IMG/VR virus record: IMGVR_UViG_3300042395_000266
Span: 1 to 55,906 of that record
From: a virus
DNA: 55,906 nucleotides
Strand: one strand, 5' to 3'
The translations under genes were made by a program, and so were the position numbers. The notes under the pieces are model-generated. The model was not told the origin of the DNA, ran no database searches, and saw only the letters and a list, made by a program, of their open reading frames with translations. Positions within the stretch are counted from its first letter, which is position 1. Each line of letters starts with the position of its first letter. Below are positions 731-45,108 of this stretch, in pieces.

Positions 731-2225
731 CATACGCGACTTCGTGGGGTTGCTGAAGCACTCCCGCGGAGACTTTGCCGGGCAGCCGTTTGTGCTGCAA
801 CCCTGGCAGAGCGACTACTTCGACCGCTTGCTCAACACCCGCCGACCCGACGGGCTGCGGCAGTATCGTCGCTCTCTCTTGGCCCTGCCCCGCAAGATGG
901 GCAAGACGCAGATGGCGGCCGCGCTTGGCCTCTACATGACCTTCTGCGACGACATCGGGGCCGAGGTCATCGTCGCGGCCGGCGACCGCTCCCAGGCTTC
1001 GCTCCTGCACACGGCCGCCAAGCAGTTGCTGGAGTCCTGCCCTTCCCTCTCGCGTCGAGCAAAGGTCTACCGCAACTCCATTGTCCTGCCCGAGCGCAAT
1101 GCCTCAATGTTCTGCATTTCCAGCGAGGCCGGGACGAAGCACGGCTACAACCCCTCGTGCGTGCTGGTGGACGAGTATCACGTCTTCCCCGACCGCGAAC
1201 TGGTCGATGTGCTGGAAACAGGCATGGGAGCGCGATCCCAGCCCCTCACCATCTGGATCACGACGGCCGGCACGAACAAAAACGGCCCCTGCTACAAGGA
1301 TTGGGAGCGGGCCGTCCGCGTCCGCGACGGGCTAATCAAGGACGATTCATTCCTTCCCTGCATCTTTGCGGCCGAGCCGGAGGCCGACCCCTTTGTCGAG
1401 GAGACTTGGAAGGCTGCGAATCCGAACTACGGCGTCACCGTGAAGCCAGAATACTTCCGGCAGATGGCCGCCAGGGCGAAGGAATCGGCCAGCGAGGAGG
1501 TCGTTTTCCGCACCTTGCACCTCAACCAGTGGCAGTCGGTGACGACTCGTTGGCTGCGGCACGGTGCCTTTGAGTCGTGCGGCGATCCGCTGCGGCCGAC
1601 GACCGACCGCGTGGCCTACTGCGGCGTCGATTTGGCGAGCACGCAGGACACGACAGCGTTCGTGGCGGTGTGGCCCGACGAGGATGGCACGTTCGACATT
1701 CATGCCCACGTCTTCATCCCCGAGGAGCGCGCCGAAGCAGCATCGAAGACTGATCGCGTGCCGTATCTCCAATGGGCGAAAGAGGGTTTTGTTACACTGA
1801 CAGAAGGCGATATTTGCGATTACGACGCCGTTCGGGACTACGTTCTCTCGTTTTGCGAGAAGAATCGGGTTCGTGCCGTAGCCATCGACCGCTACAACGC
1901 GACCCACCTGACGACGCAGTTGGTGGCCGAGGGAATTGACGTAAGGCCGTATGGGCAGGGTTTTGTGTCGATGAGTTCGCCCAGCAAACTGCTGGAAACA
2001 CTCACAATCGGCAAAAAACTCAGGCACGCCGGCAACCCAGTGCTGACGTGGCAAATGTCGAACGTGCAAATCAAGGTCGATGACGCCGGCAACATCAAGC
2101 CGTCGAAGAAGCACAGCACGTCCACGTCCCGAATCGATAGCGCCGTAGCCCTCATCATGGCGCTTGGTATCGCCAGCGGCGAGGCCAGACAGGCCGACGA
2201 TGACCCACAACTGCTGGTGTTTTGA
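723..2225 (+). CDS. terL: Terminase large subunit (ATPase-nuclease)
   Basis: Motor ATPase and nuclease that pumps DNA into the prohead and cuts concatemers. The 500 residues show a Walker A-like loop (about 54-64, LPRKMGKTQ), Walker B (147-152, VLVDEY), a coupling motif (about 179-184, ITTAGTN), and nuclease acidic residues in GVDLAS (D303), AIDRY (D389) and RIDSAV (D472). This is the HK97-like Terminase_1 pattern. The start is GTG at 723, inside the terS end. Its stop overlaps the portal start as TGATG. Confidence 0.95.
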   Translation: MVDIRDFVGLLKHSRGDFAGQPFVLQPWQSDYFDRLLNTRRPDGLRQYRRSLLALPRKMGKTQMAAALGLYMTFCDDIGAEVIVAAGDRSQASLLHTAAKQLLESCPSLSRRAKVYRNSIVLPERNASMFCISSEAGTKHGYNPSCVLVDEYHVFPDRELVDVLETGMGARSQPLTIWITTAGTNKNGPCYKDWERAVRVRDGLIKDDSFLPCIFAAEPEADPFVEETWKAANPNYGVTVKPEYFRQMAARAKESASEEVVFRTLHLNQWQSVTTRWLRHGAFESCGDPLRPTTDRVAYCGVDLASTQDTTAFVAVWPDEDGTFDIHAHVFIPEERAEAASKTDRVPYLQWAKEGFVTLTEGDICDYDAVRDYVLSFCEKNRVRAVAIDRYNATHLTTQLVAEGIDVRPYGQGFVSMSSPSKLLETLTIGKKLRHAGNPVLTWQMSNVQIKVDDAGNIKPSKKHSTSTSRIDSAVALIMALGIASGEARQADDDPQLLVF

Positions 2226-3907
2226 TGGCTACCGACGCGGACAATGCCTACCCTGGCGACGTGCTTGAACTCCGCGGGAACATCTCCCGCATCTTTGAGG
2301 AGATCGTCAACACCCGGCGAACGGCGGCCGGCGTCACGGTCAGCCCCGAAACCGCCCTGGAGTGCAGTGCCGTCCTCGCCTGCGTCCGCGTCCTGTCGGA
2401 GTCGCTGGCGGCCATGCCGCTCAACGTCTACCGGCGGCTCCGCGACGGCGGCAAGGAGATCGCGGAAGAACAGCACTTGCAGGAAATCCTGGCCTACCAG
2501 CCCAACTCGTGGCAGACGGCGTTTGAGTTCAAGGAACTCATGCAGTCTTGGCTGCTGCTGTGGGGCAACGCCTACGCCTACATCAAGGGCAGCAGCACGC
2601 ACGGTGCCGTGTCCGAGTTGATCCCGCTTCATCCGTCGAGGATGGAGACGAAGCGGCTTTCCAACGGCAAACTCCGCTACTACTACACCGAGCCGACGAC
2701 GCCCACGCAGCCGGAAGTGAAGATCACCGAGTATCGGCAGGACGAAATTTTTCATATGAGGTGGCTCTCGTCTGACGGGGTGACAGGATTTGTGCCCACG
2801 ACCCTCTCCCGCGATGCCATCGCCCTCGCCAGGGCGACGGAACTGCACTCCAGCGCCTACTTCGGCAACGGCGCGAAGTCAGGCACGGTCATCGAAACCG
2901 ATCAGCCGCACAAGCCCGAAGCGCTGGCCCGCTTCAAGGCCCAGTGGGATGAGGCGCATCGCGGCCCCGACAAGGCATACAAGACGGTCGTGATGCCCTT
3001 CGGCTTCAAGAAGAAGGACGATCCCGTCAGGAACGATACGTCGCAACTCATTGAGACACGCCGCTACCAGTGCGAGGAGGTGGCGCGGGTCTACCGAGTT
3101 CCGGCCTCGCTTTTGGGCGATTTGACGAACGTGCGTTACAGCACGGTCGAGCAGTCGGCCATCGACTTCGTCACGTTCTCGCTGATTCCGTGGTGCCGGC
3201 GCTGGGAGCAAGCCTGCCGCCGCGACCTCGTGGTCGATGATAAGACCTATTTCGTGGCCTACGACGTGAATTCGCTGATGGCCGGCGACTACGCTGCTCG
3301 TTCGCAGTTCCTGCGGGAAATGTGGAACATGGGCGCCATCGACATCGATGAACTGCGGTCGCAGATCGGCTACAACCCGCTGCCGAACGGCGAGGGGAAG
3401 AAGCGATTCGTACAGGTCAACATGCAGTTGCTGTCGGCCTTTACCCCCGACAACCCGACCGCGGCCTCGACCACCGCCGCGGCCCCTCCAGACGCTGGCG
3501 GGCAACCGCCAAGGCCATCAGAGGGCGAAGACACGCCGACGGGCTTGGGCGACGTGCAGCCGTCCACTGGCGCCGCAAGCACAGAACCGCGGTCATCGGA
3601 GGCCGCCGAGGTCGTCTTCCGCACCGCCCTGCGTCGGATCGCCGCCGTCGAGGCCGACGGTGTCCTTGAGCGCCGCAAGAATCCCGAGAAGTTGGGCCAG
3701 TGGCTCGACCAGATTCAGTCTCGGATGCGAGAAGAACTGAAGGATGCTGCCCAGGCTACCGGCCGCGACATCGATGCGTTCGTGGTAACGTGGAATCAGC
3801 GATCCCGTGACCTCTTGCTGGACTGCCACCGGAGCGGCCAGAAGTACGAAACGGCCACCGAAGGATGGTGCGACAAGCACCTAGACGACCATGCCGCAGC
3901 CCGATAA
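2225..3907 (+). CDS. Portal protein, HK97 type
   Basis: Forms the dodecameric ring at the capsid vertex through which DNA enters and leaves. The 560-residue protein begins with an HK97-like portal core (SAVLACVRVLSESLAAMPLNVYRR, residues about 43-66; WGNAYAYI; VYRVPASLLGDL). It is followed by a Pro/Thr/Ala-rich linker (about 410-465) and an extra helical, charged C-terminal domain of about 95 residues. The ATG at 2225 overlaps the terL stop. The C-terminal domain is longer than in typical HK97 portals and its role is not known to me. Confidence 0.93.
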   Translation: MATDADNAYPGDVLELRGNISRIFEEIVNTRRTAAGVTVSPETALECSAVLACVRVLSESLAAMPLNVYRRLRDGGKEIAEEQHLQEILAYQPNSWQTAFEFKELMQSWLLLWGNAYAYIKGSSTHGAVSELIPLHPSRMETKRLSNGKLRYYYTEPTTPTQPEVKITEYRQDEIFHMRWLSSDGVTGFVPTTLSRDAIALARATELHSSAYFGNGAKSGTVIETDQPHKPEALARFKAQWDEAHRGPDKAYKTVVMPFGFKKKDDPVRNDTSQLIETRRYQCEEVARVYRVPASLLGDLTNVRYSTVEQSAIDFVTFSLIPWCRRWEQACRRDLVVDDKTYFVAYDVNSLMAGDYAARSQFLREMWNMGAIDIDELRSQIGYNPLPNGEGKKRFVQVNMQLLSAFTPDNPTAASTTAAAPPDAGGQPPRPSEGEDTPTGLGDVQPSTGAASTEPRSSEAAEVVFRTALRRIAAVEADGVLERRKNPEKLGQWLDQIQSRMREELKDAAQATGRDIDAFVVTWNQRSRDLLLDCHRSGQKYETATEGWCDKHLDDHAAAR

Positions 3908-26118: not shown

Positions 26119-26486
26119 TGTTTTGGTGGCTACGGAGGCGGGCCGGCGAACTGTTCGGTGCCCCCAGGTCAGGCCGGTGGCCCAAGGTTCGGGCCGAGGC
26201 CATCCGTCGGCAGCCCTTCTGTGAGGCGTGCGGGCGGGCCAAAGACCTTGAGGTGCATCACGTCATCCCCGTCCACGTCGCCAAAGAGATCGGGCGGCCG
26301 GAATTGGAACTCGACCCCTCCAATCTGGTCGTACTCTGCGGCGACCCGTGCCACTTAGTCCACGGGCACCTCATGTCGTGGAGCCGGCACAACCCCGTCG
26401 TCCGCGAAGACTGCCGCCGCTACCGGCAGCAGATCGAGGCCGCCAAGCCCGCAAAGGCCGCTACCCAACCTTCGGCAGAACGCTGA
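26118..26486 (+). CDS. HNH nuclease
   Basis: A 122-residue HNH protein: CEACG, the core EVHHVIPVHVA, NLVVLCGDPCH and a final HGH. Four Cys form a zinc site and HH/N/H the active site. HNH proteins near phage genes may assist terminase cutting or act as homing nucleases. The start is GTG at 26118 overlapping the previous TAG. Its 3' end overlaps the convergent integrase by 26 bases. Confidence 0.85.
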   Translation: MFWWLRRRAGELFGAPRSGRWPKVRAEAIRRQPFCEACGRAKDLEVHHVIPVHVAKEIGRPELELDPSNLVVLCGDPCHLVHGHLMSWSRHNPVVREDCRRYRQQIEAAKPAKAATQPSAER

Positions 26487-27324
26487 TCGCGGAAGGGGGC
26501 TTCACGATCCTGGGGTCGAGGTACTTCCGCGTCGTCTTTGGATCGGCGTGGTCGAGCACGTCCTGCGCCGAGACTCCACCGGCTTGCGAGTAACTCGCGC
26601 AGGTCTTACGAATTTTGTGAAACTTGTCCTTGCGGCCGCTTGGCAGCCCCGCTCGCTTGAGGATGATCGCCAGCCGCCGCCAGATGTATTTCGGATTCTT
26701 GTCCCACAGGAACACGGCGTCATCCGGCGTCCGACTCCCCTTGATTGCCTGCATGGCTTCGGCGGTCTGCTCTGTGATCTCTCGCAGTAGGTCGCGCCGC
26801 TTGCCCTTGCGATCTTCTGCCTCGTAGAGAACCGTGAGGCCACGCACGTTGCGCCATCGCAGCGCGAGCACAGACGATATGCGCTCCCCCGTGTCGTAGC
26901 ACACGAGTAGGATCGCACGCCAAAAAAGCGCGGCCGGAGTGCCCGAGATGGTCACCGTTTCCTTGCTGGCTTCTGTCAGGAGCCTTTGAAACTCCTCCGT
27001 AAACCACGCCTCCGGCACCCGCTCTGGCACGTTGACGGGCTGGATGCGGGGCCATGTATCGACCATCTTGCCTCGCGCCGCCCACTCCCATAATGCGCGT
27101 AACTGTGCCCTATCCTTGGCGGCCGTGGCCGGCTCGCGAGTGCGAATCCTGTGCGCCAAGAACCTCGCGACCACGAGTTCGTCAAGGTCAGCGACCGTCG
27201 GCTCGCGCCCAAGGAAGTCGCCAAAACTCTTGATCGTGTATCCGTAGAGTTCAATTGTCCGATCAGAGATGCGGCGCATCGGAGCGTAGAAGTCGTGGAG
27301 CAATTCGGTGAGTTTCATTTTCAT
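26461..27324 (-). CDS. int: Tyrosine recombinase (integrase)
   Basis: Site-specific integrase of the tyrosine recombinase family. From ATG 27324 it has 287 residues: a SAM-like N-terminal domain (about 1-85), then a catalytic domain with Arg in DTGERISSVL, Lys in DRKGKRRD, HKIRK (H-x-x-R), a His in LDHADPKTT and the nucleophile Tyr in RKYLDP. The C-terminal insertion of integron integrases is not evident. GTG 27342 would add six residues. It follows the small gene at 27347-27583 in one leftward unit. Confidence 0.9.
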   Translation of the reverse strand: MKMKLTELLHDFYAPMRRISDRTIELYGYTIKSFGDFLGREPTVADLDELVVARFLAHRIRTREPATAAKDRAQLRALWEWAARGKMVDTWPRIQPVNVPERVPEAWFTEEFQRLLTEASKETVTISGTPAALFWRAILLVCYDTGERISSVLALRWRNVRGLTVLYEAEDRKGKRRDLLREITEQTAEAMQAIKGSRTPDDAVFLWDKNPKYIWRRLAIILKRAGLPSGRKDKFHKIRKTCASYSQAGGVSAQDVLDHADPKTTRKYLDPRIVKPPSAISVLPKVG

Positions 27325-27346
27325 GAAGGAAACATTCCCCACACAA

Positions 27347-35970: not shown

Positions 35971-36189
35971 ATGAAGCGGCCTCCAGAATTTCGCGTTGAT
36001 GACGAGCAGTTCGTCATGGAGTGCATCGATGAATTGACGGCTCCGTATGTTGACGTGCGTATCGACACGATCCCGCAGGAGTCGGATGACGCCGACTATT
36101 CGGAACGCCCCGAGTTGCTCCGCAAGGCCGCCGCGTGGCTCGTGAAGGCCGCCGAGTGGCTGGAGCAGGAGCAGGCAAAATGTCTGTGA
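35971..36189 (+). CDS. Small acidic protein
   Basis: A 72-residue protein with an acidic core and an amphipathic C-terminal helix (ELLRKAAAWLVKAAEWLEQEQ). Overlaps the methyltransferase start by 10 bases. Unrecognised. Confidence 0.55.
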   Translation: MKRPPEFRVDDEQFVMECIDELTAPYVDVRIDTIPQESDDADYSERPELLRKAAAWLVKAAEWLEQEQAKCL

Positions 36190-37037
36190 TGATCCGCGAG
36201 GGCGACTGCATCGACGTTCTCAAGACGTTCGCAGATCAGAGCGTCCACTGCGTCGTCACGTCGCCGCCCTACTGGAAGGCCCGCAACTACGGCGGCGGCG
36301 CCGGAGAACTGGGGGCCGAGCGCGATCCGATGATGTTCGTAGAGCGTCTTCTGCTGATTTTTGACGAGGTGCGCCGCGTCCTCCGCGACGACGGGACGTG
36401 CTGGGTCAACCTGGGCGACACTATGCACGGCGGCTCGCTGGCCGGCATCCCCTGGTCGCTCGCGTCGGCCATGTCTCTTTCGGCACCTGGGTACGCCCGC
36501 CGCTGGTTCCTGCGGTCAGCCGCTCCGTGGATCAAGCGCAGCCCAATGCCCGAGGCCGTCACCAACCGGCCGTCGAACGGCCTGGAATACTTCTTCCTTT
36601 TCACAAAGAAGGCTACCGGCTACCACTATGACGCCGACGCTGTGCGGCTGCCGGTCTGTCCATCGACGCTGGCCCGCGACCAATACACCCGAATCTCGGC
36701 CGGCAAGGACGGCCCCTACGCCGTTCGGCACGATCACGAGACGCCCAGCAACCCCAAGGGCAGGAACCGCCGGAACACCGATTGGTGGACGGAGAGCCTT
36801 GGCTACGTCGTGGCGTCAGCAAGTTACGGCGGGAATCACTACGCCGTCATGCCTCCCAAGTTGGTCGAGCCGGCCATCAGCGCCGGATGCCCGGCCGGCG
36901 GCGTGGTGCTCGACCCGTTCATGGGCACCGGCACCACCCTTGAGGTCGCCGTGTCGCTTGGCCGCAGCGCCATCGGCATCGAACTGAACCCCGACTACGT
37001 CAGGCTGGCAGAGGAGCGGATGGCCGCCTGCGCATGA
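36180..37037 (+). CDS. DNA methyltransferase (N4/N6, beta-type)
   Basis: A 285-residue AdoMet-dependent amino-methyltransferase. The catalytic motif TSPPYW (about 27-32) precedes the AdoMet motif DPFMGTGTTLEVA (about 241-253), the order of the beta class; SPPYW is commonly linked with N4-cytosine or N6-adenine methylation. No cognate restriction enzyme lies nearby, so it is probably protective against host restriction. Confidence 0.88.
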   Translation: MSVMIREGDCIDVLKTFADQSVHCVVTSPPYWKARNYGGGAGELGAERDPMMFVERLLLIFDEVRRVLRDDGTCWVNLGDTMHGGSLAGIPWSLASAMSLSAPGYARRWFLRSAAPWIKRSPMPEAVTNRPSNGLEYFFLFTKKATGYHYDADAVRLPVCPSTLARDQYTRISAGKDGPYAVRHDHETPSNPKGRNRRNTDWWTESLGYVVASASYGGNHYAVMPPKLVEPAISAGCPAGGVVLDPFMGTGTTLEVAVSLGRSAIGIELNPDYVRLAEERMAACA

Positions 37038-37246: not shown

Positions 37247-37496
37247 CTTCTCGTGGACTACCGCCGCGATGATTTTTGTGACCTACGTCGCCATCGACAT
37301 GCTCTACGCATGGTACGTCATCTGCGTGGGCGAGCGACGGGCCGTCACGGCCGCGCTCCTGACCTCTGTCATCTACAGCCTGCTGGCGTTCGGCGTCGTC
37401 AGTTATTCAAAAAACATCTTCTACCTCGTGCCCCTTGCCAGCGGCGCGTTCTTTGGCACCTATGTGATGGTGCGGCTCAAGAAGGTGGGCCAGTGA
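37239..37496 (+). CDS. Small three-helix membrane protein
   Basis: An 85-residue protein with three hydrophobic segments (about 7-30, 38-56, 60-78) and a short Lys end. Similar small membrane proteins occur in many environmental phages. Function unknown. Confidence 0.6.
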   Translation: MNDFSWTTAAMIFVTYVAIDMLYAWYVICVGERRAVTAALLTSVIYSLLAFGVVSYSKNIFYLVPLASGAFFGTYVMVRLKKVGQ

Positions 37497-37804
37497 CAAC
37501 AAACGACGAAGTTTTTACCGACGCCTGCGACGAATCGCTCGCTCGCCAGCGAAAACGATTTGCAGCGAAGTGTGCGCGAGCAGCCAAGGCGGCCAGGAAG
37601 AAGTTCGGCAAGTGGATTCCGATGGCGAAGCAGCGGCCGCCGGATGCCAGGGTGCTGGTCGTGCGAGAGGTCGCCAACGGCAACCGCTACATCGATATGG
37701 CCGCGTGGTGGCACGACGAGCCGTGCGGCCTGCCGGCCATCTCGTCGCTTCAGAACGTCACGCACTGGATGCCGCTGCCAGAGTTGCCGGAGGCCAGCAA
37801 ATGA
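37493..37804 (+). CDS. DUF551 domain protein, first copy
   Basis: A 103-residue protein from GTG 37493 (GTGA overlap). Residues 41-97 show the DUF551 pattern: WIPMAKQRPPDARVLVV at the start and VTHWMPLPELP at the end. Function of the family is unknown. A second, separate copy is in the cassette array (39463). Confidence 0.75.
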   Translation: MTTNDEVFTDACDESLARQRKRFAAKCARAAKAARKKFGKWIPMAKQRPPDARVLVVREVANGNRYIDMAAWWHDEPCGLPAISSLQNVTHWMPLPELPEASK

Positions 37805-38462: not shown

Positions 38463-38747
38463 ATGAACATCGACCAATTCGTCCGCACTGGTTCTCAATG
38501 CGGAGACGCCGAAATCGCGCGGCTGCGGCTTCAATCGGCGCACGCGGAAATGGAACTGCTCCGCACAGCCATCCGCCGCCTCGCGGATCAGGACGCCACG
38601 CTGTCGGTGTGCGATGGTGCGGTGACGGTGACGATGGACGCCACGCTTACCGACGAGGAGCGTGAGGCGGTGAAGTTGGCGGCTGAATGGTTCGCAGCGG
38701 TTCCCCTTGGCGACACGCTCCGCGCGTTGCTGGGGCGGCTGAAGTGA
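38463..38747 (+). CDS. Cassette gene 1
   Basis: A 94-residue helical protein. The ATG lies upstream of the GTTCTCA boundary, so the first ten codons come from the recombination site. The C-terminal part (LTDEEREAVKLAAEWFAA...LRALLGRLK) is similar to that of the gene at 41185. Unrecognised. Confidence 0.6.
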   Translation: MNIDQFVRTGSQCGDAEIARLRLQSAHAEMELLRTAIRRLADQDATLSVCDGAVTVTMDATLTDEEREAVKLAAEWFAAVPLGDTLRALLGRLK

Positions 38748-38770
38748 GAACACGGAAGATCAACAGCCGC
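38745..38770 (+). repeat. attC-like left arm, partial
   Basis: TGAGAAC followed by ACGGAAGATCAACAGCC, matching the left arms of complete sites. No clear right arm follows, so this site seems truncated or fused. Confidence 0.5.
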
Positions 38771-38786
38771 GAACAAAGGAGGCGGC
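38766..38786 (+). promoter_or_regulatory. RBS in hairpin loop
   Basis: GCCGC and GCGGC pair around an 11-base loop containing AAAGGAG, the ribosome site for ATG 38791. Confidence 0.45.
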
Positions 38787-38790
38787 AAAC

Positions 38791-39060
38791 ATGAGGGACG
38801 TTGTGACACGCATCAACCGATGGCTGGAGGGCGAGGACGCTGCCGACGCAGACGAGACGCTGCATGACGCCCGCGACGAGATCGTCGCCCTTCGGGCGTT
38901 GCTGACGCGGCAGAGCGAGTCTGCGAGCGAGGCGGTGCGACTCATGGCAGACAACGCCAGCCGATACGGATTTCTGCTCGGCGGGCTGGAGATGGTCGCG
39001 GCCGGGCATACGACGGCGGATAAGGTGCTGGCGGCGGCGAAGGCAAAATACGGTGACTGA
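38791..39060 (+). CDS. Cassette gene 2
   Basis: An 89-residue acidic helical protein (TRINRWLEGEDAADADETLHDARDEIVALRALLTRQ). Its stop runs into the left arm of the next site. Unrecognised. Confidence 0.6.
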   Translation: MRDVVTRINRWLEGEDAADADETLHDARDEIVALRALLTRQSESASEAVRLMADNASRYGFLLGGLEMVAAGHTTADKVLAAAKAKYGD

Positions 39061-39147
39061 GAACACGCAGGATCAGGAGCGGCGAACAATGAGCGATGAC
39101 AACACCAAAGAGCCGGCCGAGCCGTCTCCTGCATCCGCTGGTTATGC
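39058..39147 (+). repeat. attC-like site A
   Basis: Outer ends TGAGAAC and GTTATGC. Inner arms AGGATCAGGAG and CTCCTGcATCC pair with one unpaired base on the right arm, as in attC folded strands. A start codon (39089) lies inside it. Confidence 0.65.
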
Positions 39148-39400
39148 CGATGCTCGCCTAGTCGAGCGGGCGTTCAGAGAAGTGCTAGAGAGCGTAAACG
39201 AGGTGAGCCGCGCTCACGCCATGAACTACGCGGGGCTGCTGCACTCGCTGCTGGAAAAAGGCGTGATTACAGCGGAAGAACTCGAAGCAGGGCGAGAGAA
39301 AGCAAGGCCGGCAGTTGACAAGCATTTTGGGCCGACACCGGACGAAAGGAAGGCGAAGGATTTAGTTGAACTGCTTCGGGGACTCAAGGGCAAGGCATAA
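39089..39400 (+). CDS. Cassette gene 3
   Basis: A 103-residue protein. Its first 18 codons come from the attC-like site (ending PSPASAGYA). The cassette-borne part is helical (VERAFREVLESVNEVSRAHAMNYAGLLHSLLEKG). TAA of the stop begins the next site. Unrecognised. Confidence 0.6.
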   Translation: MSDDNTKEPAEPSPASAGYADARLVERAFREVLESVNEVSRAHAMNYAGLLHSLLEKGVITAEELEAGREKARPAVDKHFGPTPDERKAKDLVELLRGLKGKA

Positions 39401-39443
39401 CGCCAGCGATCAGCGGCTCGTCCGCTGCATCGCGTGGTTCTGT
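39395..39443 (+). repeat. attC-like site B
   Basis: Outer ends GCATAAC and GTTCTGT. AGCGATCAGCGG pairs with CCGCTGcATCGCgT across a five-base loop; the lower-case bases are unpaired. At 49 bp it is short for an attC site. Confidence 0.7.
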
Positions 39444-39462
39444 GGGCGTGGAGGATCAGACC

Positions 39463-39705
39463 GTGAAATGGATCAGCGTGAAAAAGCAATTGCCTGAGTG
39501 GGGTGAGCAAGTCATCGTCGCTCACCGTCGCTACGATTGGTCAAACGCCCGGCACAAGTGGACACGGCTCAAAAGGCTGGGCGTGAAGCCAGCCACGTTT
39601 TGGAGGCAGGACGAGAACGGGCCGCGATTTACTGATGGTGAAGATGTTGTGGCCGAGCCGGTGGCATGGATGCCGCTCCCGGCCCCGCCGAGCGACGGCA
39701 AGTAG
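39463..39705 (+). CDS. DUF551 protein, cassette gene 4
   Basis: An 80-residue protein matching DUF551 (WISVKKQLPEWGEQVIVAHR; VAWMPLPAPP). The start is GTG 39463, eight bases after GGAGGA; GTG 39442 is also in frame. The cassette ends match over nine bases, the best in the array. Confidence 0.75.
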   Translation: MKWISVKKQLPEWGEQVIVAHRRYDWSNARHKWTRLKRLGVKPATFWRQDENGPRFTDGEDVVAEPVAWMPLPAPPSDGK

Positions 39706-39707
39706 CC

Positions 39708-39797
39708 ACAGAACACGGAAGATCAACGGCGGCGGACGCAAGGCATGACAACACCAAACGACATTGACCCGCCGTCCGTTGCATCGCTTGGTTCTGC
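39708..39797 (+). repeat. attC-like site C
   Basis: Outer ends ACAGAAC and GTTCTGC. GATCAACGG pairs with CCGTTGcATC, with GGC/GCC extension. An internal ATG (39745) opens a 28-codon frame through the right arm, reading PPSVASLGSA. Confidence 0.65.
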
Positions 39798-39820
39798 TGC
39801 GTTGGCCTCGGAGATGGGCA

Positions 39821-40696
39821 ATGCCTGAGCACCACTTCCTCAATCTCGGCGCTGGCGTCCAATCGACGGCGCTCTACCTCTTGAGTATCGACGGCGACGA
39901 GCCGGAAGTGCCGCGATTCGATGCCGCCATCTTCGCGGACACGCAGGAGGAGCCGGACGAGGTATACCGGCACCTGGAATGGCTGGAAAAGCAGGGCGGC
40001 CCGCCGATTGTGAGGACGACAGCGGGGCGGCTGGGCGCTGCCTTGGAGCAAGGCAGCGATGCGTCTGGCAATACCCGCACTGACGGCGGCCACTACGTTT
40101 CGATCCCGGCATTCACGGTGCATCCGCAGACCGGACAGAAGGGCATCATCCAGCGGCAATGCACAGCCGACTTCAAGGTCAAGCCGATTGAGCGACTGAT
40201 CCGCGAGCACTGCGGCGGGCAGTTCGGCAGGCCGCTGCCGAAAGAGGTCATCGTTCACCAATACATGGGGCTGTCGTTCGACGAGCCGAAGCGGGTCATC
40301 CGCGTCAAGGAACGATTCCTCGCCAAGCCGTCAAACTGGAAGGTTCATTTCCCGCTCTGGGAGATGCAATGGGATCGCGGCGACTGCAAATCGTACCTAC
40401 GCGAGCGTATGCCATACGAGGTGCCACGCTCGGCCTGCGTGTTCTGCCCGTTCAAGTCAGACGAGGAGTGGCGTCGGCTGAAGGCCGACGATCCCAAGGG
40501 CTGGGAGCGTGCCGTGCACATCGACAAGGTGTGCCGCACCGGCACCGGGCTGGACGCTCACCGATACTTGCACAAGGCGTGCGTGCCGCTGGACGAGGTT
40601 GACCTACGGCCCGCCGACGAGAAGAGCGGGCAGATGAACATGTTCCGGCACCTGCGCGGGTTTCAGGACGAGTGCGAAGGGTACTGCGGGAACTAG
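39821..40696 (+). CDS. PAPS reductase-like protein, cassette gene 5
   Basis: A 291-residue PP-loop ATP pyrophosphatase-like protein: GAGVQSTALYLL (about 9-20) as PP-loop, FADTQEEPDEVY, QCTADFKVKPIERLI and ACVFCPFKSDEEWRRL. This phage and prophage group is related to PAPS reductases and DndC. It might act in sulfur transfer, for example to DNA or tRNA, but no dnd partners are here. GGAG precedes the ATG. It is large for an integron cassette gene. Confidence 0.75.
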   Translation: MPEHHFLNLGAGVQSTALYLLSIDGDEPEVPRFDAAIFADTQEEPDEVYRHLEWLEKQGGPPIVRTTAGRLGAALEQGSDASGNTRTDGGHYVSIPAFTVHPQTGQKGIIQRQCTADFKVKPIERLIREHCGGQFGRPLPKEVIVHQYMGLSFDEPKRVIRVKERFLAKPSNWKVHFPLWEMQWDRGDCKSYLRERMPYEVPRSACVFCPFKSDEEWRRLKADDPKGWERAVHIDKVCRTGTGLDAHRYLHKACVPLDEVDLRPADEKSGQMNMFRHLRGFQDECEGYCGN

Positions 40697-40784
40697 CAGA
40701 ACGCCAGCGATCAGCGGCATCGAACACAGGAGATTGACACATGAGCGACGTTGATGAGATGTCCGCTGCATCGCGTGGTTCTGC
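40696..40784 (+). repeat. attC-like site D
   Basis: Outer ends GCAGAAC and GTTCTGC, exact complements. CCAGCGATCAGCGG pairs with CCGCTGcATCGCgTGG. An internal ATG (40741) opens a 21-codon frame (SAASRGSAN) ending at the next gene start. Confidence 0.7.
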
Positions 40785-40802
40785 AAACGGAGGAGACAAG
40801 AC

Positions 40803-41162
40803 GTGAGCGATAGTTGGTTCGACACGCTGGTCGCAAAGTGGATCGAACTTTGCGAACTTGCCAATATCGAAGTGGACAACATTGAACGGGCGAGGTCGTT
40901 CATTGACGGCGGCGCATACGAGTCGAAGGAATGGACGAAGCCGCCGTCGCTGCAAGCCTTGCAGGCGTGGTATCTCGCGGCCAGAGATTTGTCGGAGCAG
41001 CAGGATGACGGCGACGAACTGATGAGCAGCGAACTGTGGCGGATTTTGACGCTCACGGAGAAGGCGTACCAAATGGGCCTTGCCGATGCGGCGGCCAGAA
41101 CGGCGGATAACGCGCCGAGAATTCACGTCGAACGGCCGCGAAACAGCATGGCCCGTGATTAA
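40803..41162 (+). CDS. Cassette gene 6
   Basis: A 119-residue acidic helical protein (IELCELANIEVDNIERARSFI; PSLQALQAWYLAARDLSEQQDDGDELMSS). GTG start with GGAGGAG before it. Unrecognised. Confidence 0.6.
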   Translation: MSDSWFDTLVAKWIELCELANIEVDNIERARSFIDGGAYESKEWTKPPSLQALQAWYLAARDLSEQQDDGDELMSSELWRILTLTEKAYQMGLADAAARTADNAPRIHVERPRNSMARD

Positions 41163-41177
41163 CACGCAGGATAAGGC
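41157..41177 (+). repeat. attC-like left arm, partial
   Basis: GATTAAC plus ACGCAGGATAAGGC resembles the left arms, but the outer end does not complement the unit's start (GTTCTGC) and no right arm is seen. Confidence 0.4.
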
Positions 41178-41184
41178 AACCGAA

Positions 41185-41406
41185 ATGGCACACGTCGAGG
41201 CCGGAACGTCGTTTCTTACTCCAGAGGAACGCGAGGCGTTGATCGTCGCCTCAATCGAACTGAACGCCCTTCATTGCTGGGAGGAAAATCATTCTGCCGC
41301 GCTGCGTGGCCTTCTGGCGAGGCTGTCGCCGCCCGCCGACAGGCCCGACGTGCTGCCGTTCCCCACAGAACCTCCGCAGCCCTACGACATCGACGGTGAC
41401 TCGTGA
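41185..41406 (+). CDS. Small protein related to cassette gene 1
   Basis: A 73-residue protein with [19 protein letters not shown]...LRGLLARLS, similar to the end of the 38463 gene. GTG 41155 would add ten residues. It couples to the dehydratase by GTGA. Function unknown. Confidence 0.55.
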
Positions 41407-42398
41407 CCAAGCGTGCCCTCATCACCGGCATCACGGGACAGGACGGTTCCTACTTGGCAGAGTTCCTGCTCGCCAAGGGGTACGCGGTGCATGGCGTCAT
41501 GCGACGGTCGAGTACGTTCCCGACCGCCAGGATCGACCACCTCTACGACCAACTCAAACTGCACTATGGCGACGTGGCAGACGGCACGGCGATGAGCCGC
41601 ATCGTCCGCGACGTGGCGCCGCACGAGGTCTACCATCTGGCCGCGCAGTCGCACGTCCGCGTCAGTTTCGACCAGCCTGTCTACACGGCCGACGCCACCG
41701 GGATCGGCGCGCTGCGGATGCTGGAGGCCATCCGCGACTACGAGGACGCCACTGGCAACCGCTGCCGCTACTACCAAGCCTCCAGTTCCGAGATGTTCGG
41801 CTCGACGCCGCCCCCGCAGGGCGAGGCCACGCCGTTTCACCCCCGGTCGCCCTACGGGTGCGCCAAGGTCTACGCCCACTGGATCACGGCGAACTACCGC
41901 GAGTCCTACGGCCTGCACGCCTCGTGCGGCATCCTTTTCAACCACGAGAGTCCTCGCCGCGGTGAGACGTTCGTGACGAGGAAGATCACGAGGGCAGTGG
42001 GCCGGATCAAGGCGGGCCTGCAATCGACGCTCCACCTGGGCAACCTCGACGCCCGCCGGGATTGGGGGTTCGCCGGGGACTACGTCCGCGCCATGTGGCT
42101 CATGCTCCAGCAGGAGACGCCCGGCGACTACGTCGTGGCGACGGGGCAGGCGCACACGGTGCGGGAGTTCTGCGAGCGGGCCTTTGCCCACGCGGGCCTT
42201 GACTACGAGGACTTCGTCGTCATCGACCCACGCTATTACCGGCCCGCGGAGGTCGATTTCCTGCTGGGCGACCCCGACAAGGCCCGCAGCGATTTGCTGT
42301 GGTGGCCGGCGGTCGATTTCGACGGCCTCGTGCGGATGATGGTCGATTCCGACGTGGAATTGGCCCGCCGCGAGAAGGCGCTACAAGGAGCAGCGTGA
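41403..42398 (+). CDS. gmd: GDP-mannose 4,6-dehydratase
   Basis: Converts GDP-mannose to GDP-4-keto-6-deoxymannose, precursor of fucose, rhamnose and related deoxy-sugars. The 331 residues contain the NAD(P)-binding [15 protein letters not shown] (about 8-22), the RRSS motif, catalytic-site ASSSEMFG, the Y-x3-K in [26 protein letters not shown] and [16 protein letters not shown]. All are characteristic of Gmd. It suggests the phage redirects sugars for surface glycan change. Start is GTG 41403. Confidence 0.93.
42379..42395 (+). promoter_or_regulatory. RBS in hairpin loop
   Basis: CGCT and AGCG pair around a nine-base loop ACAAGGAGC holding the ribosome site for ATG 42398. Confidence 0.4.
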
Positions 42399-42556
42399 TG
42401 CCACTCAAAAAAGGCGGCAAGACCGAGAAGGCGATCAAGGCCAACCTCGCGGCGAATATCTCGGCCGAAGTGAAGGCCGGAACGCCGCATCCCCAGGCGG
42501 TCGCCATCGCGATGGACATCGCGGAGAAGGCCCGCGCGAAGGCGAGGAAGAAATGA
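42398..42556 (+). CDS. Small Lys-rich phage protein
   Basis: A 52-residue protein of a widespread small phage type: [18 protein letters not shown]...GTPHPQAVAIAMDIAEKA. Function unknown. Ends in ATGA overlap. Confidence 0.65.
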   Translation: MPLKKGGKTEKAIKANLAANISAEVKAGTPHPQAVAIAMDIAEKARAKARKK

Positions 42557-42726
42557 CCTGCGCAGACTGCCTGTTTTTCCGCCCGGCCGGCGACGGTGTC
42601 GGGGAGTGTCGGCGGCTGCCGCCCTGCCGGCCGGGGAATTTCCCCGACGAGCCGTGGCGGTTCCCGGTCGTGTCGAGCGAGGCCGGCTGCGGCGAGCACG
42701 AGCCGAAAAAAGACCTTGACCAGTAG
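42553..42726 (+). CDS. Small CxxC protein
   Basis: A 57-residue protein, start ATG 42553. CADC near the N-terminus, then C, C and C (GECRRLPPC; GCGEH), a likely zinc or FeS site. Similar CxxCxFF small proteins are frequent in phages. The stop TAG begins a TAGGCTACCG element. Confidence 0.6.
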   Translation: MTCADCLFFRPAGDGVGECRRLPPCRPGNFPDEPWRFPVVSSEAGCGEHEPKKDLDQ

Positions 42727-42744
42727 GCTACCGTCCGCGACACT
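42716..42744 (+). promoter_or_regulatory. Candidate promoter with TAGGCTACCG
   Basis: TTGACC (42716-42721), 17 bases, GACACT (42739-42744); TAGGCTACCG lies in the spacer with GG 13 bases before GACACT. Confidence 0.45.
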
Positions 42745-42773
42745 ATTGACCCCCGCAGGAATGGAGTCTTGCC

Positions 42774-42935
42774 GTGATTCGCCGCGACCTGTTCACGATG
42801 ATCGCCGTTGCCGCTACCGCTGCCGGCATTGTCGCGGCCTCGCGCCTGGGCAGCCGCCATGCCGACTCCGGTCGTCGCCTGCCGCCCGTGAACCACGTTG
42901 ACGGGCCTCGCCCGTCCCGCTTGTCGATTGCTTGA
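42774..42935 (+). CDS. Small exported peptide
   Basis: A 53-residue frame from GTG 42774 with a signal-like start (IRRDLFTMIAVAATAAGIVAAS) and a basic, Pro-rich rest. The codons near its end form a perfect hairpin (GACGGGC-CTC-GCCCGTC, 42900-42916). Moderately supported by the promoter upstream. Confidence 0.45.
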   Translation: MIRRDLFTMIAVAATAAGIVAASRLGSRHADSGRRLPPVNHVDGPRPSRLSIA

Positions 42936-42959
42936 TCTGGTTGGCTACTTATTCCGCAA

Positions 42960-42975
42960 CACCAAGGAGAAGGTG
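42960..42975 (+). promoter_or_regulatory. RBS in hairpin loop
   Basis: CACC-AAGGAGAA-GGTG places the ribosome site for ATG 42979 in an eight-base loop. Confidence 0.45.
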
Positions 42976-42978
42976 AGC

Positions 42979-43299
42979 ATGAACTTCACACGCGAAAAAC
43001 TGTACGAACTGTGGTACGACGAAACGAAGACAAACACGCAAGTCGCAAAGGAACTGGGCGTCACGCTCGTGCGGCTGTGGAAGTTAGGGCGAGCGTATTC
43101 GCTACCGCGCCGCGTCAAGCGTCAAAACCAGCCCGACCCCTCAATCGAAGAAATTCACGACCGCGCGGCAGCGATTCGCGCGACATGGAGTCCAGAGGAG
43201 CGCGAGCAGAGGCGCGTCGGGCTGCGGCGTCAGAGGTGGACGCCGCCGGAGTTCCGGTTCACGCCGTGCGGGTATCTGGTGCCGGCCGGAAGCCGCTAG
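42979..43299 (+). CDS. HTH protein, GcrA-like start
   Basis: A 106-residue protein: an N-terminal helix-turn-helix (KLYELWYDETKTNTQVAKELGVTLVRLWKLGRAYSLPRR) and a second motif, SIEEIHDRAAAIRATWSPEEREQRRVG. The second motif is shared with the gene at 45105. Probably DNA binding. Preceded by a GGCTAC element and AAGGAG. Confidence 0.6.
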   Translation: MNFTREKLYELWYDETKTNTQVAKELGVTLVRLWKLGRAYSLPRRVKRQNQPDPSIEEIHDRAAAIRATWSPEEREQRRVGLRRQRWTPPEFRFTPCGYLVPAGSR

Positions 43300-43577
43300 A
43301 GAAGACAATCGTCGCCAAGGGAATGGCGGCGGCCAAGGAGATGGGGTGGTTCGCGATCAAGTTGCACGGCGGCGCGTACCAGATGACCGGGCTGCCCGAC
43401 GTGCTGGCGATCAAGAACGGACGGGCGGCGTGGATGGAATTCAAGCGGCCTGGGGAGCACCCAACAAAGATTCAACAGCACCGTCTGCGTCAGTTGGCTG
43501 ACGCAGGGTGCGACACCGCGGTGTGTTACTCCGCGGGGGACGTGCGAGCGTTTCTTTCACAATGCGAGGCACAGTGA
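43266..43577 (+). CDS. VRR-NUC-type nuclease
   Basis: A 103-residue PD-(D/E)xK nuclease of the VRR-NUC type: EKTIVAKGMAAAKEMGWFAIKL, GLPDVLAIKNGRAAWMEFKRPG (catalytic D, E and K) and QQHRLRQLADAGCDTAVCY. Such phage enzymes process branched DNA. GTG 43266 is chosen so the first helix is complete; ATG 43323 would cut it off. Confidence 0.8.
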   Translation: MRVSGAGRKPLEKTIVAKGMAAAKEMGWFAIKLHGGAYQMTGLPDVLAIKNGRAAWMEFKRPGEHPTKIQQHRLRQLADAGCDTAVCYSAGDVRAFLSQCEAQ

Positions 43578-44248
43578 TGGAAGAAGAATTTCTGGCCGAG
43601 TTCGCGGATCGTGCGGTCGCCGGTCGCTGCCGCGTGGCAATCGACATCGGCGCGAATACCGGCGAGTGGACTCGCTGGCTGGCGAACCAGTTCGACCACG
43701 TCCTGGCGATTGAGCCTGACCCGCGAGCATACGGAGAACTGCTGAACGGGCTTCCCGGCAACGTCCATCACATGATGGTGGCGGCCGGCGAGAAGCACGC
43801 CGTGGCCGACTTCCATCTTCGACCGGACACGCGGCAGTCGTCGCTTCTGGCCGAGCATCCAATCGGTGGCGCCGGCCAGGAGGATGCTCCGGTCGCGCAG
43901 ACCGTCAGCGTCACGACACTGTCGCTCGACGTGCTCCGCGACGTGTGCCGGCAGTATTTCGGCACCGACGAGATCGACTTCGTCAAGATCGACGTGGAGG
44001 GCGCGGAGGCGGCCGTTCTTTCCGGCGCATCGCCTGAGCACTTTGCCGGCACGCGGTTCCTCGTGGAGATTCACGACACGAGGGAGGCTGTGGGCGCGCA
44101 ACTGCGGCGCCTTGGGCGTGACGAGGTGCGGGTCATTCGCCACCCGGCGGAAAACGCCCACCCGCAGCACTTCTGGATGTTCGCTCCCTCCATCGTGGCG
44201 GAAGCCGTTGAGCCGGAATCCGACGAAAGCGCGGACTCCGACGAATGA
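43577..44248 (+). CDS. FkbM-family methyltransferase
   Basis: A 223-residue AdoMet-dependent methyltransferase: DIGANTGEWTRWL (about 21-33), VLAIEPDPRAY and the FkbM motif IDFVKIDVEGAEAAVL. FkbM enzymes methylate hydroxyls of sugars or polyketides. Between gmd and a glycosyltransferase, a glycan substrate is likely. Acidic C-terminal tail. Confidence 0.85.
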   Translation: MEEEFLAEFADRAVAGRCRVAIDIGANTGEWTRWLANQFDHVLAIEPDPRAYGELLNGLPGNVHHMMVAAGEKHAVADFHLRPDTRQSSLLAEHPIGGAGQEDAPVAQTVSVTTLSLDVLRDVCRQYFGTDEIDFVKIDVEGAEAAVLSGASPEHFAGTRFLVEIHDTREAVGAQLRRLGRDEVRVIRHPAENAHPQHFWMFAPSIVAEAVEPESDESADSDE

Positions 44249-45108
44249 CAACTGCCGACTCCATCTGGCCGGTCGAGGACAAGTACCTTGACGGCTACGA
44301 GCGCCACGTCGCGGTGGGCCGCGACGTGGCGCTTCGGACGAAGGTCGTGTTTCTTGCGATTGCGAGAGATGCGATGCCGCACCTGACCAACACCCTGGCG
44401 TTGGTCGAGGAGTCGGCGGCCATGTTTCGCGAGGCGGTCTTCTACGTCTTTGAGAACGATTCGACCGACGGGACAGACGCTGTTCTCAAGGAGTTCGCCG
44501 CCTCGCGGCCGTGGGTGACGACCGAGCACGCCACGCTCGACCGCCCCGACGTTCGTGGATTTGAGCCGGAGCGGACGGTGCGGCTGGCGGAATACCGAAA
44601 CCGCTGCCGGGATTGGGCGATCAAGAACCACCCCGACGCCGACTACGTCATCGTGCTCGACCTCGACCCGCACGGAGGGTTCAGCACCGCCGGAATCCTG
44701 AACTCCATCGGACTGCTGTGTGAACTGCGGTCTAGCACTCTCCAGCCAGCCCTGGCCGGCGCTATGGCGAGCATGTCGCTGTTTGTCAGCAAAGGCCGCG
44801 ACGGCAGTCCTGGGGTTGCCCAGTACGACGCCTGGGCCGCGCGGATGAACTTTTGGGAGGATCGCAGGGGCGGGCCGGGCGGAATGGCGTGGTTTCACAT
44901 GCTCCTGCTGCCGATTGGCTCGCCGCCCGTGCCGATGAATTCGGCGTTTGGCGGCTTGTGCGTTTACGCGGCCGATGCGTTCTACGCCCTTGGCGTCCGG
45001 TACGAGGGTAGCGATTGCGAGCACGTCTTGTTGCACAAGAACATGAGGGCGGCCGGATACCAACTCTATCTCAATCCTGGGAGCAGATACGTCGCCATTC
45101 TTCCATGA
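44245..45108 (+). CDS. Glycosyltransferase (CAP59/GT69-like)
   Basis: A 287-residue GT-A-type enzyme: VVFLAIARDAMPHL, YVFENDSTDGTDAVL (nucleotide-sugar binding) and VIVLDLDPHGG (DxD). The ENDSTDGT plus LDLD combination resembles GT69/alpha-mannosyltransferase-like proteins. It overlaps the FkbM gene (ATGA) and likely acts in the same glycan pathway. Confidence 0.75.
   Translation: MTTADSIWPVEDKYLDGYERHVAVGRDVALRTKVVFLAIARDAMPHLTNTLALVEESAAMFREAVFYVFENDSTDGTDAVLKEFAASRPWVTTEHATLDRPDVRGFEPERTVRLAEYRNRCRDWAIKNHPDADYVIVLDLDPHGGFSTAGILNSIGLLCELRSSTLQPALAGAMASMSLFVSKGRDGSPGVAQYDAWAARMNFWEDRRGGPGGMAWFHMLLLPIGSPPVPMNSAFGGLCVYAADAFYALGVRYEGSDCEHVLLHKNMRAAGYQLYLNPGSRYVAILP

Follow-up and report, generated by a model that had tools for sequence, protein, structure and literature searches.

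Clusters of integron attachment sites without an integrase have been described in phages before. A survey of 10,705 isolate phage genomes found 17 such clusters of attC sites lacking the integron integrase (CALINs), virulent phages included, and several of the sites recombine with IntI1 in vivo (PMC9892861). The arrays had the typical orientation or divergent sites, and planctomycetes are not mentioned in the text of that study (PMC9892861). Here we describe an attC array in the IMG/VR virus record IMGVR_UViG_3300042395_000266, whose complete sequence of 55,906 bp is the window of our analysis (G000). Like the phage CALINs of Qi et al. 2023, it consists of attC sites without IntI inside a phage genome. 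Unlike them, it belongs to a large phage group, its genes are inverted, start codons lie inside attC, and its type of cassette is also common to a bacterial chromosome. No match to the array was found among 50,697 isolate phage records.

Two further systems are closely comparable. The sedentary chromosomal integrons of Planctomycetes have the same attC core and geometry as the phage sites, placed beside IntI, but their cassettes differ in having the canonical orientation, with attC 3' of the gene, and an in-frame ATG in the loop at only 6 of 117 sites. In class 1 integrons, ORF-11 in attI1 and short open reading frames (ORFs) in attC aid translation of the next cassette by coupling (PMC8876359). 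The phage loops likewise hold a short frame at the site of recombination. In class 1 integrons, however, this frame lies in attI or in the attC of the preceding cassette and is separate from the gene, whereas the frame of a phage loop and the gene are in one cassette, and usually this frame runs on to encode the N-terminus of the protein.

We assign a probability of roughly 0.86 to the reading that the window carries a CALIN-type array of cassettes, each composed of an attC site and a gene, with inverted genes, in a tailed phage whose most likely hosts are planctomycetes. Integron cassettes in phages are not new in themselves, but inverted and self-initiating ones appear to be. In the open-access papers searched, there was no report of planctomycete phage integrons, of a population of phage cassettes with inverted genes, or of start codons inside the attC of such cassettes. 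The first-pass annotation, made from the letters of the window, had proposed an integron-type cassette array; the inverted gene orientation and the loop start codons were not part of it.

attC sites of the array

Rfam gave no match in the window, and the attC call therefore relies on a covariance model built here, R1. The underlying alignment, A1, holds 37 sites, none from the window and five of them host sites. attC-like sites were gathered from viral contigs, in part by their right-half motif (65 stretches with GTCCGCTGCATCGCGTGGTTCTG and 116 with GTCTCYTGCATCCGCTGGTTCT); the resulting 133 loci are therefore a minimum, and sites like those of the window are favoured among them. In A1, 93.2% of the arm cells are paired. 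Double changes numbered 75 versus 26 in shuffles, with none of 500 shuffles reaching as high, and the covariation score was 0.303 compared with 0.094 in shuffles and far lower values for every slid version.

R1 finds exactly four strong sites in the 55.9-kb window, all on the + strand, while the next match has an E value of only 0.027. These are s0 (39057-39148, 76.2 bits, E 3.4e-20), the short-loop site s1 (39394-39444, 53.5 bits, E 1.9e-13), s2 (39707-39798, 77.8 bits, E 1.1e-20) and s3 (40695-40785, 84.0 bits, E 1.8e-22). The imperfect palindrome R''-L''/L'-R', in which the inner arms pair, is borne out by covariation and by the model matches. In each of the four sites the + strand folds into the attC inner stem, which fits the + strand being the canonical bottom strand; the minus-strand fold was not clean for all sites, and its end points differed from those of the + strand folds. 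Fold stability varied, with z = -3.5 for s1 as DNA on the + strand and about -3 for s3 as RNA, and s0 as DNA was no more stable than its own shuffles. In described attC sites the extrahelical bases are on one arm; the inner one is T and is separated from the outer one by about 6-8 nt (PMC2727003). The window sites have two unpaired bases, C and T with T as the inner one, which are separated by 6 bp in the right arm of the + strand. The same spacing is present in the class 1 attC sequence found at 98% under catB3 in plasmids. The first-pass annotation had seen four attC-like sites between small genes, with paired inner arms and unpaired bases on one side, and had suggested a covariance-model search and bottom-strand folding as checks; the R1 search bore the sites out, and the + strand gave the inner stem at all four.

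With four sites and no IntI found in the window, the array is a CALIN, a term applied where two or more attC sites stand with no intI in their vicinity. It is not a complete integron with intI and attI in cis, as IntI is missing; attI was not searched for separately. Besides the intact sites, three damaged ones were read by eye on the + strand and were not found by R1. At the left border, 38472-38497 is a remnant of an attC right half, GTCCGC-ACTGGTTCTCA, with an internal deletion relative to GTCCGCTGCATCGC..GGTT. The site at 38743-38800, recognised against intact sites such as L115:8746-8837, has kept its left half, Shine-Dalgarno sequence and ATG and lost its right half, and a left-half remnant marks the right border (41161-41187).

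Complementary unit ends and inverted genes

A circular cassette holds one whole attC, so that the two ends of an integrated unit are complementary to each other and the two halves of a site in an array come from different cassettes. This signature was observed when exact complementary bases beyond GTT/AAC were counted in 156 non-redundant viral units. The mean run was 4.31 bp within a unit compared with 2.01 across the halves of one site and 1.93 in shuffled units, and the largest mean among 1000 shuffles was 2.29. Runs of at least 4 extra bases were present in 115 of the 156 units versus 31 for site halves (nominal Wilcoxon p = 1.6e-16). Thus the units have the mutually complementary ends of gene cassettes. 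The first-pass annotation had described such ends for four successive units of the window and explained them by a cassette carrying both halves of its boundary. The explanation is supported by the 156 units, and the ends do pair in the three units between intact sites (GTTATGCC/GGCATAAC, GTTCTGTGG/CCACAGAAC and GTTCTGCT/AGCAGAAC). For the first unit (38491, GTTCTCA/TGAGAAC) the pairing is ambiguous because TGAGAAC occurs twice, at about 38745 and 39058, and the unit begins at the damaged right-half remnant.

Since the unpaired C and T lie on the right arm of the + strand, this strand is the canonical bottom strand and the cut is expected at its left edge, AA^C. The phage genes run along the + strand and therefore have their attC at the 5' end, which means that, as judged from site geometry, the canonical attC direction is opposite to the genes. 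An attC at the 3' end of the gene, as in usual cassettes although not strictly defining for them, is found in the hosts and not in the phages. Three observations support this orientation. In planctomycete genomes the same sites occur beside IntI with the canonical direction pointing away from it, the core travels with the downstream and not the upstream gene between phage loci, and clean matches start and stop at AAC. Confident calls from ORF length and G+C content at third codon positions gave a ratio of inverted to canonical genes of 83:6 in phages and 4:45 in host arrays (p = 6e-25). In attC sites it is the bottom strand that is exchanged, within the R' box between A and C (PMC2727003), and breakpoints in our sequence comparisons lie at AA^C. 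The earlier proposal of a cut at G/TT, at the right edge of the site, is replaced by this left-edge break.

Exchange among phages and with a bacterial chromosome

At least 133 of the viral loci fetched carry one or more sites, and 74 carry two or more. Nevertheless, when 38 long relatives were selected through other genes, arrays were present in only 5 of them, and they are accessory and patchy. The claim that arrays in phages are rare at best does not hold for this phage group. In L224, a record without the array, the methyltransferase is about 1.7 kb from the next shared stretch versus 5.4 kb. Virus records of 118-204 kb (L271, L297, L335, L111) also carry these attC motifs, so that phages of other sizes than that of the window may have the array type too.

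Pairs of loci that share only the downstream gene have a mean attC core identity of 0.88, with 15 of 50 above 0.95 and 40 of 50 of the same length. In pairs that share only the upstream gene the identity is 0.73, equal to random pairs, none of 40 exceeds 0.95 and 11 of 40 have the same length (nominal Fisher p = 8e-5 for identity above 0.95 and 6e-7 for length). Moreover, single cassettes turn up in different surroundings, at identities that reach about 98-100%. Viral contig L232 contains the whole cassette of a phosphoadenosine phosphosulfate (PAPS) reductase-like gene, 39710-40702, at 97.8%; the match starts and stops at the attC edges, and after it L232 continues in unrelated non-attC sequence. 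Comparison of related phages, also suggested at first pass, revealed exchange of whole units with clean site-edge breaks.

The exact site motif was found in only two genomes of the genome collection. One is the Planctomycetaceae bin G001, in which an IntI (454 bits) lies on the same contig as the matching array. In its family 27 of 72 genomes exceed the IntI cut-off and 52 of 72 have R1 sites. Contig C23 of genome G039 (L407:1-800) holds two adjacent short-loop cassettes of phage type, in phage orientation, within a host array. The one agrees at 97.9% with a cassette in phage contig L320, the other at 93.9% with a cassette in L202, their flanks being unrelated, and for the L320-type cassette the identity runs exactly from AAC to AAC. 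As the contig also carries methionyl-tRNA synthetase (metG) and a carbohydrate kinase, we regard it as chromosomal. These matches indicate that viruses and bacteria do trade cassettes, in one direction or in both. The notion that the phage took up and may exchange cassettes with a host integrase is thereby supported by clean breaks between phages and between phage and chromosome, with IntI use as the best inference.

The attC loop as a probable translation start

Of 229 long phage sites, 188 have in their loop an ATG from which one frame only stays open across the junction, compared with 6 of 117 host sites (p = 2e-47), and a Shine-Dalgarno-like motif lies just upstream of 179 of these 188 ATGs. 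The frame runs at least 150 nt beyond GTT in 160 of the 188, whereas the second frame does so in 26 of 86 and the third in none. Therefore, most such cassette proteins start with an attC-encoded stretch, of the type M..EPSPASAGS or M..SAASRGS. Predicted folds put the Shine-Dalgarno sequence and the ATG in or near the apical loop, and we infer that they would drive translation of the cassette.

In the window, the loop ATG of s0 at 39089 opens a fused ORF (39089-39400). The leader peptide of s2, MTTPNDIDPPSVASLGSAALASEMGNA, has a stop that overlaps the next start codon, and that of s3, MSDVDEMSAASRGSANGGDKT, lies in and beyond the loop and ends at the start codon of the next gene, suggesting translational coupling. 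The loop of s1 has three bases, and its gene uses its own start. In many viral loci, for example L081, L095 and L132, cassettes open with the same stretch, GTTCTGTGAGCGT, possibly a shared 5' leader.

Cassette genes and their surroundings

The cassette genes comprise 256 ORFs in 199 clusters, and 147 of the ORFs have their start within attC. Where a unit is complete, its stop codon usually falls 0-10 nt ahead of the following AAC. Most of the 60 protein representatives scanned had no Pfam match. Matches were to DUF551 (5), DNA methylases, HNH endonucleases, a Mom-family protein and a recombinase. The methylases, HNH endonucleases and Mom-family protein hint at a possible role in the contest with host restriction.

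All window cassette genes lie on the + strand. The small ORF of the first unit (38463-38747) has no Pfam or PHROG match; nucleotide matches of 76-88% are found in array-bearing loci such as L115, L124, L127 and L341. The ORF at 38791-39060, in the cassette with the damaged attC, is 89% identical to L284:7083-7351 at the nucleotide level. The ORF 39089-39400, fused in frame to an attC-encoded N-terminus (MSDDNTKEPAEPSPASAG...), belongs to the predicted cassette 39064-39400. It is followed by a DUF551 gene (39463-39705; PF04448, 3.5e-7) in the predicted cassette 39401-39713, with a GTG start behind its own Shine-Dalgarno sequence and 95% nucleotide identity to L214:2738-2963. The PAPS reductase-like gene (39821-40696) matches phrog_424 at 8.9e-40, and the last cassette ORF (40803-41162, 119 aa) had no Pfam or PHROG match.

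By its gene complement the window record is a genuine tailed phage. PHROGs matches include a large terminase (723-2225), a portal (2222-3907), a head maturation protease, a major head protein, a head-tail adaptor and a neck protein as well as exonuclease, primase, helicases and DNA methyltransferase; no tRNA was found in the window. The phage most likely infects planctomycetes, according to its site type and its terminase relative. The latter (G066 C20, 10690-12183) is 68% identical to the terminase of the window and lies on a 14-kb contig of a planctomycete bin, which by this resemblance is a phage or prophage fragment of the same group. The array is flanked by a methyltransferase (36135-37037) and a GDP-mannose 4,6-dehydratase (41403-42398). 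The latter opens the adjoining stretch 41403-45105, which also encodes a methyltransferase and a family 2 glycosyltransferase and is possibly a surface sugar module. Just upstream of the array, 37253-37804 encodes a second protein that shares its PHROG families, in the C-terminal part, with the DUF551 cassette protein.

Discussion

Several points weigh against reading the locus as an array of inverted cassettes moved by IntI. On the strand that folds, the outer unpaired base is C and not G. G is particularly conserved in described attC sites but is not given as invariant (PMC2727003); planctomycete host sites beside IntI also have C, which is probably a feature of the lineage. The host was deduced from the site type and from a 68% relative of the terminase in one bin of a planctomycete family, and gene orientation in host arrays was called from ORF length and third-position G+C content rather than from curated annotation. 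Because the sequences are related and so not independent, certainty is lower than the Fisher and Wilcoxon p values imply. Exchange is read from sequence comparison, and IntI is its probable enzyme. Finally, the PAPS reductase-like gene and right arm are nearly identical in the window (39714-39810), L232 and L233, and the left arms and loops differ. Such loop swaps, seen for some of the shared genes, show that a second route besides the exchange of whole cassettes also acts, by homologous recombination in the right arm or by loop replacement.

The enzyme could also be the phage's own. A tyrosine recombinase of the phage integrase type (PF00589) is encoded at 26464-27342 on the minus strand, which suggests temperate ancestry, and a PF00589 recombinase is present in 32 of the 44 array-carrying viral records, 23 of which have a phrog_9 terminase match. 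The best NCBIfam matches of the window enzyme are of the Xer type, and to IntI there is no more than a trace (E 0.007). However, it matches ordinary phage integrases (phrog_1, E 1e-30), scores 15.7 bits against an IntI cut-off of 265, and is independent of the arrays, being present in 27 of 33 related records without attC. Together with the cassettes common to phages and to host chromosomal integrons of an IntI-bearing family, this makes movement by the phage recombinase improbable. None of the 44 array-carrying records has an IntI and the probable hosts do; host IntI is therefore favoured as the enzyme that moves the cassettes.

Even less probable is a dead fragment of a host integron, kept by descent and not exchanged. 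It would be in line with the missing IntI and the three damaged half-sites in and around the window array, and illegitimate or off-target recombination has been offered as the origin of the borders of phage CALINs (PMC9892861). Whole-cassette exchange, single cassettes in different contexts and the patchy distribution nevertheless disfavour it, and gene orientation and loop content of the phage arrays differ systematically from those of host arrays. Equally hard to uphold are mere translation-start hairpins with units shuffled by homologous recombination between them, which would suit the strongly maintained loop Shine-Dalgarno and ATG, cores alike enough for homologous exchange and loops swapped independently of genes, but would predict neither complementary variable ends of one unit, nor breakpoints at the AAC edge that leave the entire core with the downstream gene, nor extrahelical bases, nor the same sites beside IntI in bacteria, and as a sole explanation conflict with loops lacking an ATG in host and short phage sites.

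For an inverted cassette array we propose that during infection host IntI would bind the folded + strand of the window and cut between A and C of the left box. Cassettes would then pass between phage genomes and the host integron through attC x attC recombination. With the ribosome-binding site and ATG in the loop, each gene would bring its own translation start and need only read-through transcription by the phage. Inserted in a host array, a phage cassette would be antisense to the usual cassette direction and probably silent. We lean towards a wider scheme, held with clearly less confidence than the array itself, in which planctomycete phages keep a shared pool of cassettes of their own, suited to phage transcription through the inverted genes and through an attC loop that contains the ribosome-binding site, start codon and N-terminal codons; host IntI would reshuffle this pool during infection, and host chromosomal integrons would store cassettes in a silent state. 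It predicts inverted attC sites, AA^C junctions and dependence on host IntI.

Integron cassettes form a modular pool of accessory genes for a whole phage group, and the shared cassettes are direct sequence evidence of transfer between phage and chromosome. Moreover, the site of recombination appears to serve at the same time as a module for starting translation, and this suggests how a cassette that lacks a promoter may be expressed anywhere in a phage operon.

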